DNA of 64,000 nucleotides from Tsuneonella amylolytica (lineage in GTDB: Bacteria; Pseudomonadota; Alphaproteobacteria; Sphingomonadales; Sphingomonadaceae). The position numbers were made by a program, and so were the translations under genes. The notes under the pieces were generated by a model that worked only from the letters and a program-made list of their open reading frames with translations, was not told the origin of the DNA and did no database searches. The stretch covers positions 248,001 to 312,000 of the forward strand of contig NZ_CP032570.1 of NCBI RefSeq assembly GCF_003626915.1, in the 5' to 3' direction. Shown one piece after another: positions 45,465 through 52,212 of this stretch. Numbering within the stretch: the stretch's first letter is position 1; each line of letters opens with the position of its first letter.

Positions 45465-46679
45465 ATGTCCGACATCAAGAAGGTCGTCCTCGCCTACAGC
45501 GGCGGGCTCGACACCAGCGTGATCCTCAAGTGGCTGCAGGTCACCTACAACTGCGAGGTCGTCACCTTCACCGCCGATCTCGGACAGGGCGAAGAACTGG
45601 AGCCGGCGCGCGCCAAGGCGAAGCTGATGGGCGTGCCCGACGAGCACATCTACATCGACGACCTGCGTCAGGAATTCGTGCGCGACTTCGTGTTTCCGAT
45701 AATGCGCGCCAACGCCCGATACGAAGGAGACTACCTGCTCGGCACCAGCATCGCCCGTCCGCTCATTTCCAAGCGCCTCATCGAGATCGCCCGGGAAACC
45801 GGCGCCGACGCGATCGCCCACGGCGCGACCGGCAAGGGCAACGATCAGGTGCGTTTCGAGCTGTCGGCCTACGCGCTCGATCCCGACATCAAGGTCATCG
45901 CCCCGTGGCGCGAATGGGATCTCACCAGCCGCACCGCGCTGATCGCCTGGGCCGAGGCGCACCAGATTCCCGTGCCGAAGGACAAGCGCGGCGAGAGCCC
46001 GTTCTCGACCGACGCGAACCTCCTTCACACCTCGTCCGAAGGCAAGGTGCTCGAGGATCCGTGGGAGGAGACGCCCGACTACGTCTATTCGCGCACCGAC
46101 GATCCCGAGAACGCGCCTGATACGCCCGAGTACATCACGCTCGACTTCGAGCGGGGTGACGGCACGGCGCTGAACGGCGAGGCGATGAGCCCGGCGACCC
46201 TGCTCGCTGCGCTCAACGATCTCGGCCGCAGGCATGGCATCGGACGGCTCGATCTCGTCGAGAACCGCTACGTCGGCATGAAGAGCCGCGGCATGTACGA
46301 AACGCCCGGCGGCGAGATCTACGCCCGTGCGCACCGGGGTATCGAGCAGATCACCCTCGACCGCGGTGCCGCGCACCTCAAGGACGAGCTGATGCCCAAG
46401 TACGCGGAGCTCATCTACAACGGGTTCTGGTTCTCCCCGGAACGCGAGATGCTGCAGGCGGCCATCGATCTCAGCCAGGAGAAGGTCGGCGGCACCGTTC
46501 GCCTCAAGCTCTACAAGGGCAACGCGAGCGTGGTGGGGCGCAAGTCCGCCAATTCGCTCTATTCGGAACGGCACGTCACGTTCGAGGACGACGCCGGAGC
46601 TTACGACCAGACGGATGCGCAAGGCTTCATCAAGCTCAACGCACTGCGGCTACGGCTGCTGGCGCAGCGCGATCGCTGA
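45465..46679 (+). CDS. argG: Argininosuccinate synthase
   Basis: Joins citrulline and aspartate with ATP in arginine synthesis. The 404-residue protein begins with the PP-loop motif [16 protein letters not shown] (~10), and contains [16 protein letters not shown], the citrulline-binding [18 protein letters not shown] and [15 protein letters not shown]. It is complete. Downstream there is no simple terminator directly at the stop; a non-coding structured region begins instead. Confidence 0.97.
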
Positions 46680-46779
46680 AATTTAGTTACGCCCTGCCCG
46701 CTTGCGGTAGAATGTTGAGTTATCCACTCGCGTCCACAGCGTAATCGGCACCTGGGGGATAACTCGGACGCGGTCCGCT

Positions 46780-47240
46780 TGCGAGACTCGGCGCGGCACC
46801 GCACATTCAGGTCATCGGAAGGGAGCGGAAGCAACCGGACGGACGAACCTTCGGGTTCTGAAAGTCCAGCTGATTTCGCAAACGACCGTGATGGCGGCAG
46901 CTGTCCACGCGATCCTCGCAAGAAGAACGCGAAGCTCCGCAGCCATCGACCGGACTTTCCCGGTCCACTGCCGAGGAAGCGACGCAAGAGGGCTTCGGCC
47001 CAATCGCAGCGCAACCGTTCGAGGCAGCGGACCAGCAGCGGAAGACCGGTCTCGGAACCGCCCTGCACACGGAAAGGACTTCGGTCAGGACCGATCGCAC
47101 GGAGGAACCGGATGCCGGTGCGCGCGCCGGTGACAGCGCCGGAAGACTTCGGTCGGACGGCAACGGCACTGGGCGCCAAGTCCCCTTCGGGGGCCACGCG
47201 CCGGTGAGAGTGGGGTCGACCTTCGGGTCGGCCCCATTTG
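46780..47240 (+). ncRNA. Candidate large structured RNA downstream of argG
   Basis: The 744 bp between argG and rlpA lack a credible gene but are full of nested complementary segments on the plus strand. Examples: GGAC/GTCC around GAACC-TTCG-GGTTC (46841-46867); GATGGC/GCCATC (46890/46942) enclosing AGCT/AGCT and CGCG/CGCG; GGTCC..TGCC/GGCA..GGACC (46962/47033) enclosing GCGA/TCGC and GGGC-TTCG-GCCC; and CACT.GGCGC/GCGCC.GGTG (47167/47206) enclosing CCCC-TTCG-GGGG. Six hairpins end in UUCG tetraloops. The last is a terminator. It is not recognisable as RNase P RNA, tmRNA or 6S RNA. The 5' end is a guess. Confidence 0.5.
47211..47240 (+). terminator. Terminator of the structured region
   Basis: TGGGGTCGACC (47211-47221), loop TTCG, GGTCGGCCCCA (47226-47236), then TTTG. 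An 11-bp stem with one G-U pair. It marks the 3' end of a transcript that is either a long argG 3' UTR or a separate RNA. Confidence 0.75.
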
Positions 47241-47423
47241 CATTCCGGCCTCGAGCCAAGCGAATCGATCTTCTGCGTAAGGCTTCAGCGAAGCGGTCGG
47301 GAACCTTTCATCCAGCCAAACGTGGTTAACTTCGGGTAGGCCACGGCGAATTGTGGCGACTCCGGGGCGAGGCGAGGAACCGGGGGTGCCGCTGGGGCCG
47401 AATCCTCCGTAGACCCCTCGCCC

Positions 47424-47948
47424 ATGGACGGACGCCCGAACATCTTCCGCCGCACGGCGCTGCGCGGTCTCGCACTTGCCGTTGCGATGGCTCTCCCCGC
47501 ATCTGCCGGCGCCCCTGCCTTAGCCGAAAGCGGTACCGGACGTTTCGAAACAAGCTTCTCCGCCGTGCCGGCGCCCTCGACCGCGTTCGTCGCTGTCGCC
47601 AGCGCGGTCGACATCGCCGCGATCGAACCTGCCGTCGAGGCCGAAGACGAGGGCCGCAGCATCGCGGGCGGCGTCGCCAGCTTCTACGCCGACAAGTTCA
47701 ACGGCCGCCGCACCGCCAGCGGGGAGGCGTTCAGCAACAGCGGCCTCACCGCCGCGCACCGCACCCTGCCCTTCGGCACCCGGCTGCGCGTGACCAACCC
47801 GTCGAACGGCAAGTCCGTCGTGGTCCGCGTCAACGATCGCGGTCCGTTTCACGGCAACCGCGTTCTGGACGTCAGCCGCGCCGCCGCCAGCGAGCTTGGC
47901 CTGGTCCAGCGCGGCAGCGGCCGCGTGGAGCTCGCCCTCCTCGACTGA
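47424..47948 (+). CDS. RlpA-family septal ring protein / lytic transglycosylase
   Basis: A 174-residue exported protein with the double-psi beta-barrel of RlpA. After a signal peptide (residues ~8-35, ending ALA) and a disordered Ala/Val-rich linker comes GVASFYADKFNGRRTASGEAF (~81-101), HRTLPFGTRLRVTNP and VVRVNDRGPFHGNRVLDVSRAAA, which include the Asp and Arg/His residues linked to lytic transglycosylase activity on denuded glycan. There is no SPOR domain, so septal targeting is uncertain. Confidence 0.88.
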   Translation: MDGRPNIFRRTALRGLALAVAMALPASAGAPALAESGTGRFETSFSAVPAPSTAFVAVASAVDIAAIEPAVEAEDEGRSIAGGVASFYADKFNGRRTASGEAFSNSGLTAAHRTLPFGTRLRVTNPSNGKSVVVRVNDRGPFHGNRVLDVSRAAASELGLVQRGSGRVELALLD

Positions 47949-50502: not shown

Positions 50503-52212
50503 ATGCTAACCGATCTGAAAGATTGTACAACGAGAGCTGCATTAGCTTCAATTCTGGGTGTAGAAGCCAAGGAGCTGGCATACGTTTTATATAAGATTGA
50601 TCAGGGCTCCAAATATACATCATTTTGTATTAGTAAGAAAAATGGTGGTACCCGCCAAATTCAGGCTCCCATCCCTAAACTGCGTTTTATACAATCCAGA
50701 TTGCAGCAGATTTCAATGGCATGCTGTGATGACATTGCCGATTTAGGAATCTACAAAGGCAAGTTATCATTTGCGTTTCAAAAGGACCGCAATATCTTTG
50801 AAAACGCGCGACCACACGTCGGTAAGCGTTTTATTCTGAACCTAGACATCCGAGACTTCTTTCACCAATGCAACTTCGGAAGAGTTAGAGGATATTTTAT
50901 CCATTCCAAAGAATGGAAGCTTGATCCAGCAGTAGCCACTGTGATCGCTCAGATTGCTTGTGTGGACGAAGGTCTTCCTCAAGGGAGTCCGAGTTCCCCC
51001 ATTATCGCAAATCTATTGGGGCAAATTCTCGACGTCAGGCTTACGAGATTTCTTCATCCGCGTCGCTGCACATATACCCGTTATTGTGACGATATCACTA
51101 TATCAACAGATATGAGGGTATTCCCACGGGATGTCGCCGTTCAGGATGACAGCTGGCCTAGTGGCTGGGCTCTGGCCGCCCCTTTGGAGGACATTTTTGT
51201 ACGGGCAGATTTTCCGATCAATTACAATAAGCTGAGAATGTCATTTGACTGTTCCAAAAAGGTCGTAACGGGCCTCACTGTAAATCGCTTCCCAAATATA
51301 GATAGGAAGTTCTACCGAGATACGCGACTACTATTGGATCGTTATGCGCAAACCTCTTCTTGCAAATACATAGAATTTACGGGGAACTTTGGAAATAACT
51401 GTGATAACACAGAAACGAAAAACAAAAATCCTATTCTACGTTTAGGAGGCAGGCTCGCCTTCATACACCACATCAAAAGCCGTACATCGTTGATCGGATA
51501 CCCCGGAATCGTTCACCCTCAAAATCCTCAATTTTACGGCATGGTGCAGACTTACGCGTTTGCCAAGGACTTCGTCTTTAATAGTATTCCAACAGTAGTG
51601 ACTGAGGGTCCGAGTGACATCATCCACTTGAAGGCCGCGATCAGAGCGAACCCTGCGTGGGCGCCTCACATATTCGATTCAAAGGAAAACCGCTTTCTTG
51701 TGAAGTTTGCTAGACACGACGGATTATTTGCCACTGTACTTGGCATGTCGGGAGGCACTGGCAACATCGGAAGATTTCTCGATCTTTATTACTCCAGATT
51801 CAAGAGAATAAATTACAAAATCAGAACTCAACCGTCTGTCATTGTTGTGGATAACGACAAAGGTTCGCACGGAATTTTGAAACGACTTAGCAATATCCAC
51901 AAGATGAAACTCTCCACCGGCGATGGCCTCGTAGTCAAAAAGCTTCAGCCCTTTTTTTACATTTGCAAAACGCCCCAGCTCGCGGGAAAAGCTGAAACGG
52001 CGATTGAAGATCTGCTGCCGAGCGCGATAACGGGAATGGTGGTTGGCGGTAAAACCTTCGAGCCGGACACAAAGAAGTTTGAGTCATCCAAGAATTTTGG
52101 AAAGATTTTCCTTGCTAAGATGGTGGCCACCCAACACTCGGCGACTGCCTACGCAAACTTCCAGCAGTTCATCACCGGCTTAGACGACGCAGTCGCTGGG
52201 GTCGCTAAATAG
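50503..52212 (+). CDS. Retron reverse transcriptase fused to TOPRIM domain (Ec67-like)
   Basis: A 569-residue retron protein. It makes branched msDNA from the adjacent RNA; retrons act as anti-phage systems in which the RT and msDNA hold an effector in check, and here the effector is probably the fused TOPRIM nuclease. RT motifs: retron-specific NARPH (NAxxH, 101-105), LDIRDFF (114-120), LPQGSPSSP (158-166), catalytic YCDD (194-197; most retrons have YADD) and VTG (255-257). TOPRIM: catalytic TEGPSD (367-372) and VVDNDKG (448-454). ATG 50503 is chosen by comparison with Ec67; upstream GTG 50488 or TTG 50443 would run back through the RNA. GC content is far below the neighbours, indicating transfer. 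Confidence 0.92.
   Translation: MLTDLKDCTTRAALASILGVEAKELAYVLYKIDQGSKYTSFCISKKNGGTRQIQAPIPKLRFIQSRLQQISMACCDDIADLGIYKGKLSFAFQKDRNIFENARPHVGKRFILNLDIRDFFHQCNFGRVRGYFIHSKEWKLDPAVATVIAQIACVDEGLPQGSPSSPIIANLLGQILDVRLTRFLHPRRCTYTRYCDDITISTDMRVFPRDVAVQDDSWPSGWALAAPLEDIFVRADFPINYNKLRMSFDCSKKVVTGLTVNRFPNIDRKFYRDTRLLLDRYAQTSSCKYIEFTGNFGNNCDNTETKNKNPILRLGGRLAFIHHIKSRTSLIGYPGIVHPQNPQFYGMVQTYAFAKDFVFNSIPTVVTEGPSDIIHLKAAIRANPAWAPHIFDSKENRFLVKFARHDGLFATVLGMSGGTGNIGRFLDLYYSRFKRINYKIRTQPSVIVVDNDKGSHGILKRLSNIHKMKLSTGDGLVVKKLQPFFYICKTPQLAGKAETAIEDLLPSAITGMVVGGKTFEPDTKKFESSKNFGKIFLAKMVATQHSATAYANFQQFITGLDDAVAGVAK

Follow-up and report, generated by a model that had tools for sequence, protein, structure and literature searches.

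The gap between argG (45465-46679) and rlpA (47424-47948) of Tsuneonella amylolytica holds a predicted non-coding RNA gene of about 428 nt, preceded by a block of promoter-like sites. All coordinates refer to the window, that is, the whole stretch of 64,000 nucleotides that was analysed. In order along the + strand, the features of the gap are as follows.

46720-46727, + strand: DnaA-box-like site 1, TTATCCAC, exact in 45 of 57 species against 0.05 expected from shuffles
46730-46737, + strand: DnaA-box-like site 2, GCGTCCAC (consensus TTGTCCAC), 10 bp past site 1
46755-46762, - strand: inverted DnaA-box-like site 3, GGGGATAA (consensus GTGGATAA)
46778-46784, + strand: -35-like element CTTGCGA, with CTTG conserved in the promoter alignment
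46785-46789, + strand: GANTC (GACTC), a putative CcrM methylation or GcrA site
46802-46807, + strand: -10-like region CACATT (family consensus GCGCAgnTTC), from the promoter alignment, position inferred
46812-47239, + strand: predicted non-coding RNA gene, based on homology, lengths, covariation and strand evidence
46845-46858, + strand: 5' hairpin GAACC-UUCG-GGUUC, with two-sided compensatory changes
47102-47239, + strand: conserved 3' domain with covariation, the basis of covariance model R1
47115-47130, + strand: hairpin CCGGUG-CGNG-CGCCGG, the most conserved sequence of the RNA
47138-47161, + strand: variable hairpin with a covarying 3-bp closing stem, GCC/GGC here and others elsewhere
47167-47206, + strand: long stem CACUGGGCGC...GCGCCGGUG, with an inner UUCG hairpin at 47182-47193
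47210-47239, + strand: Rho-independent terminator GUGGGGUCGACC-UUCG-GGUCGGCCCCAUUU

A preliminary description had proposed a large structured RNA at 46700-47245. The RNA itself is borne out by conservation and covariation, and its boundaries are corrected here to 46812-47239, where the 3' end is fixed by the terminator and the 5' end is inferred. When both strands of the argG-rlpA gap were read, no convincing gene was found. Frames without a stop codon, 142 and 198 codons long, might suggest a protein-coding gene on either strand, for example at 46779-47207, but chance frames of such size arise in GC-rich sequence. Across 57 homologues, the longest stop-free frame on the + strand ranges from 58 to 163 codons, mostly within shuffled expectation, and the compensatory changes described below track stems. 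Because frame length is not conserved and stays near shuffled values, we rejected the coding reading, to which we now give essentially no credence; the original statement that the region lacks a convincing reading frame agrees with the absence of a conserved frame in the homologues.

The locus is strongly conserved. A DNA search of 60 relatives recovered it in all 10 Tsuneonella relatives, as well as in six other genera of the family, and a covariance search with R1 in 398 family genomes gave roughly 125 strong matches. The R1 scores are bimodal, running from 156 down to about 53 bits and then dropping to weak, chance-like matches below 36 bits, and the RNA is nearly always present in a single copy per genome. 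In a set of 298 genomes of the order, all of the matches listed fall in the same family. Carriers include Qipengyuania, Erythrobacter, Altererythrobacter, Croceibacterium, Aurantiacibacter, Pelagerythrobacter, Porphyrobacter and Tsuneonella. The predicted class is frequent in the Erythrobacter group, and traces of it extend to other genera of the family. A lack of conservation in relatives, which would have refuted the initial proposal, did not occur. Four argG loci from R1-negative genomes also keep the layout or parts of it, with the box array in L280, L282 and L283 and a similar terminator in L280, L281 and L282, which suggests that the RNA family is probably older than R1 detects.

Across 57 homologues the RNA measures 413-584 nt, and every one of them terminates in an intrinsic terminator. 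The terminator proposed earlier is confirmed at 47210-47239, with a stem that covaries among species and a loop that is UUCG in Tsuneonella and mostly AGCAAU in other genera. The six UUCG-capped hairpins reported before are likewise all present, with exactly six CUUCGG loops (46849, 46993, 47079, 47147, 47185 and 47221) in the argG-rlpA gap against 0.34 expected, a number that none of 2000 dinucleotide shuffles reached.

Compensatory changes support the proposed helices. In alignment A1 (17 species), for which 35 base pairs were placed by hand, 95.3% of cells are paired and 12 of the 35 pairs show two-sided changes, amounting to 43 cells against 13.7 in shuffles. The second alignment, A3, consists of 40 species left out of model building; here 22 of the 35 pairs carry two-sided changes (130 cells against 37.0 shuffled, matched by 0 of 500 shuffles), and pairing reaches 93.6%, compared with only 36-43% when the partners are slid by 1-3 columns. 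Since A3 was fitted to the model, it is biased towards the structure, but such a bias would hardly produce so many kinds of pair; one position in helix 4, for instance, is paired as CG, GC, UA and AU. The 5' hairpin was assessed separately and has 32 two-sided cells against a shuffled mean of 13.9 (maximum 24 in 500 shuffles), although its listing came from a search that favours pairing. It sits at a nearly constant distance from the inferred start across species, its loop interchanges UAAC, GCAA, GAAA and UUCG in relatives, and UGAAA comes next. The covariation sought for the proposed RNA was therefore found in both alignments and, independently of them, in this hairpin. When the 57 full bodies were aligned with MAFFT and scanned for covariation, most of what was recovered were the 3' helices, as the middle of the RNA aligns poorly, and RNAalifold found little in the segment preceding the 3' domain. 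In one clade (L093, L097, L107, L116 and L121), the long 3' stem has lost the inner hairpin, which makes it a naturally occurring minimal form of the 3' domain.

Two strand-specific signals place the RNA on the + strand. G-U pairs account for 144 cells against the 31 A-C cells that the opposite strand would require, and CUUCGG occurs 143 times in the 57 homologues against 11.5 expected, an excess of about 12-fold on the + strand, whereas its reverse complement CCGAAG is not enriched (15 against 20.9 expected). The terminator and its U-run lie on the same strand. Folding energy is less informative: the z-scores are modest (-2.8 for 46812-47239 and -2.5 for the whole stretch), and the opposite strand is more extreme, at -4.7. 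Folding energy alone is therefore insufficient proof, and the case for a structured RNA is established by conservation and covariation instead. Taken as far as sequence can show, we regard a structured RNA gene with the structure given here as nearly certain.

This RNA corresponds to no known family that we could identify. The 4227 models of Rfam 15 gave no match in the argG-rlpA gap at gathering thresholds, and relaxing the search to E values up to 10 yielded only chance matches far below threshold; the Rfam check put forward at the outset has thus been carried out and matched no family in the region. The original failure to recognise RNase P RNA, tmRNA, 6S RNA or SRP RNA also stands. The sole genome matches to tmRNA (RF01849) and 6S RNA (RF00013) lie elsewhere, at 2,498,894-2,499,238 and 2,680,865-2,681,036, and RNase P and SRP RNA are excluded by the Rfam scan of the window only. 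Like 6S RNA and tmRNA, the RNA downstream of argG is structured, single-copy and of a similar order of size, but those two are encoded at 2.681 Mb and 2.499 Mb of this genome. OLE, GOLLD and ROOL, whose functions are unclear, are free-standing RNAs of hundreds of nucleotides with many conserved helices that came from comparative genomics. The present RNA is also free-standing and large, with many conserved helices; however, no Rfam model matches it, and its distribution and context differ from theirs. Our literature search found no description of an RNA beside argG, although many subscription papers were outside its coverage. With no Rfam model and no description found in the literature, we regard the RNA family as new.

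The block upstream of the RNA has a fixed architecture. In nearly all species, the order is GASTTATCCAC, tandem GTCCAC with a 10-bp step, inverted GTGGATAA, CTTG, GANTC and GCGCAgnTTC. The tandem arrangement of sites 1 and 2 is recognised in 55 of 57 species, and site 3 occurs as GTGGA[TA]AA in 53 of 57 against 0.07 expected; the spacing from site 1 to the inverted site is 31-33 bp in 53 of 55 and identical in most species. GANTC, which mostly reads CGACTC, is found at -27 in 43 of 57 species and within 45 bp in 51 of 57, where about 8-9 would be expected, while about 10% of species lack it in the promoter, and in more it is displaced from its usual position. The -10 element is weak or degenerate, and the start site is an estimate. 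The conserved block implies that the RNA has its own promoter, which is not experimentally proven, together with its own predicted terminator.

An RNA hairpin at 46716-46765 was considered and rejected. The preliminary description had read this inverted repeat as an RNA stem, which is probably wrong: it lies upstream of the inferred start, and in many species its arms, TTATCCAC facing TTTTCCAC between flanks that carry G/C mismatches, change independently of each other, which is how separate DNA sites behave. The arms were tabulated without statistics; as they are not strictly co-varying, the most likely reading of the block is DNA bound by protein rather than a stem of the RNA.

The relation to argG bears on whether the RNA is a separate gene. 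According to tblastn, argG directly precedes the RNA in each of the 57 aligned species and is encoded on the same strand, and in this genome no strong terminator separates the two. Both observations would fit a long structured 3' UTR of argG, cotranscribed with it and either influencing the stability of argG mRNA in cis or giving rise to an sRNA derived from the 3' UTR. Against this, the conserved promoter-like block separates argG from the RNA, and in the distant genus represented by G011 argG is separated from the array and its RNA by a 152-aa gene. For these two reasons we regard the RNA as an independent gene and the 3' UTR as quite unlikely, so that of the two options left by the preliminary description, a new RNA class is supported by the lack of an Rfam match and the 3' UTR is disfavoured. 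That the RNA stays beside argG in nearly all species could nonetheless hint at a local role.

The identity of the proteins acting at the promoter is inferred from sequence. The 8-mers of the boxes fit DnaA boxes, and 8 of the 9 bases of TTATNCACA match in most species, but the ninth base is usually C or T in place of the A of a strong DnaA box. Exact 9-mer boxes are present in some members and in distant genera, and the distant members L280 and L282 carry the exact 9-mer TTATCCACA within the same array; the boxes TTGTCCACA and CTGTCCACA at the probable oriC of this genome, upstream of hemE, also speak for DnaA. Given the ninth base, the sites could belong to a different protein. The genome encodes GcrA, and with a GANTC in the promoter the sequence criterion for the GcrA/CcrM regulon is met, in the absence of binding or expression data. 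GANTC is scarce, with 68 occurrences in the 64-kb window, fewer than base composition would suggest, which is consistent with CcrM sites being under selection and is to be expected where the site is in use. Action of DnaA and the GcrA/CcrM system at this promoter is an inference, and, with expression itself inferred, we lean only modestly towards cell-cycle control of the RNA.

The ninth base also leaves room for a different explanation, in which the RNA is of a housekeeping or ribonucleoprotein type, a scaffold or a ribozyme, and its promoter answers to another regulator, the boxes not being those of DnaA. Large size, multiple domains, helices capped by UUCG and GNRA loops, and single-copy retention would all suit such an RNA. 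However, the exact TTATCCACA boxes in distant members and the GANTC site point to replication control, and the known housekeeping RNAs that were tested (tmRNA and 6S) are located elsewhere. We consider this explanation doubtful, though it cannot be set aside.

Similar box combinations are rare elsewhere. The tandem box pattern occurs only once in the 2.79-Mb genome. Across 385 genomes of the class, the array pattern was found in three cases outside the family, and the pattern read backwards in none outside it. The three cases (L284, L285 and L286), from alphaproteobacteria, carry a similar array of TTATCCACA, GTGGATAA and GANTC in other contexts; their neighbours, roughly read, do not settle which protein binds. 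In the window, TTATCCACA at 51846-51854 (- strand) and ATATCCACA at 51893-51901 (+ strand) lie about 40 bp apart, 5 kb from the RNA gene; the genome has only three exact DnaA 9-mers, the box at 51846-51854 among them.

A cluster of this kind could be taken for a DNA element. In Escherichia coli, DARS and datA are non-coding loci outside the origin in which DnaA boxes cluster at close spacing. The cluster downstream of argG is also non-coding, closely spaced and off-origin, and its three rigidly placed boxes, unique in the genome, would fit a locus that binds DnaA and modulates its activity, transcription being of secondary importance. It differs from DARS and datA in that a conserved promoter-like block and then an RNA gene follow directly downstream, and a DNA element would not need the RNA-specific covariation of the 430-nt body, the strand-specific loop excess or the terminator. 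We therefore hold this possibility to be highly improbable.

A reading of the RNA locus as oriC was rejected, as the locus lies at 0.295 Mb, far from hemE at 1.504 Mb and from the GC-skew minimum, which sampling of 20 genome stretches placed between about 1.5 and 2.0 Mb; these positions put the locus nearer the terminus than the origin. The region upstream of hemE is the usual place of oriC in Caulobacter. In this genome it carries TTGTCCACA and CTGTCCACA, and the stretch (about 15200-15520 of L276, or about 1.5052-1.5055 Mb of the genome, G000) is AT-rich, with DnaA-like boxes and several GANTC sites. From these features alone, it is the probable oriC.

Taken together, the reading we favour, with reasonable but far from complete confidence, is a new RNA family with a cell-cycle-linked promoter of the DnaA/GcrA-CcrM type, whose RNA acts in trans; expression, regulation and trans action are all inferred. 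In this model, the RNA would be transcribed from its own promoter, formed by the three rigidly spaced DnaA-box-like sites, CTTG, GANTC and a degenerate -10. DnaA and the GcrA/CcrM system would couple its transcription to chromosome replication, with the promoter firing either in line with the methylation state that the replication fork leaves behind or at high DnaA activity. The intrinsic terminator would end the RNA, and the finished molecule, whose target is unidentified, would most likely be a regulatory or protein-binding RNA that works in trans.

A cell-cycle-linked ncRNA is not in itself a new idea in this class of bacteria. CcnA of Caulobacter crescentus is a cell-cycle ncRNA located at the replication origin that binds the 5' UTRs of ctrA and gcrA (PMC8959179). 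The likeness to the RNA described here is conceptual: CcnA is an alphaproteobacterial ncRNA tied to the cell cycle and the CtrA/GcrA/CcrM circuit, and for the present RNA such a tie is inferred. Comparison with the CcnA sequence was limited to Rfam. In contrast to CcnA, which lies at the origin, the RNA downstream of argG is about 1.2 Mb from the probable origin, large and highly structured.

Bacteria have few large structured RNAs, several of which have proved to be ribozymes, riboswitches or RNP machines. With roughly 125 strong matches, compensatory changes and no Rfam match, the usual bar for a new RNA family is met, and many carriers are cultured, among them Tsuneonella, Qipengyuania, Erythrobacter and Croceibacterium. 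Whether it is an undescribed class of large structured RNA that is transcribed in the replication programme and serves as an RNA component of cell-cycle control is, in our judgement, evenly balanced. Sphingomonadales (cluster E) are known to have a cell-cycle circuit different from that of Caulobacter (PMC2877005). The promoter predicts the timing of RNA synthesis, and the RNA could open up RNA-level control of replication or division in Sphingomonadales.
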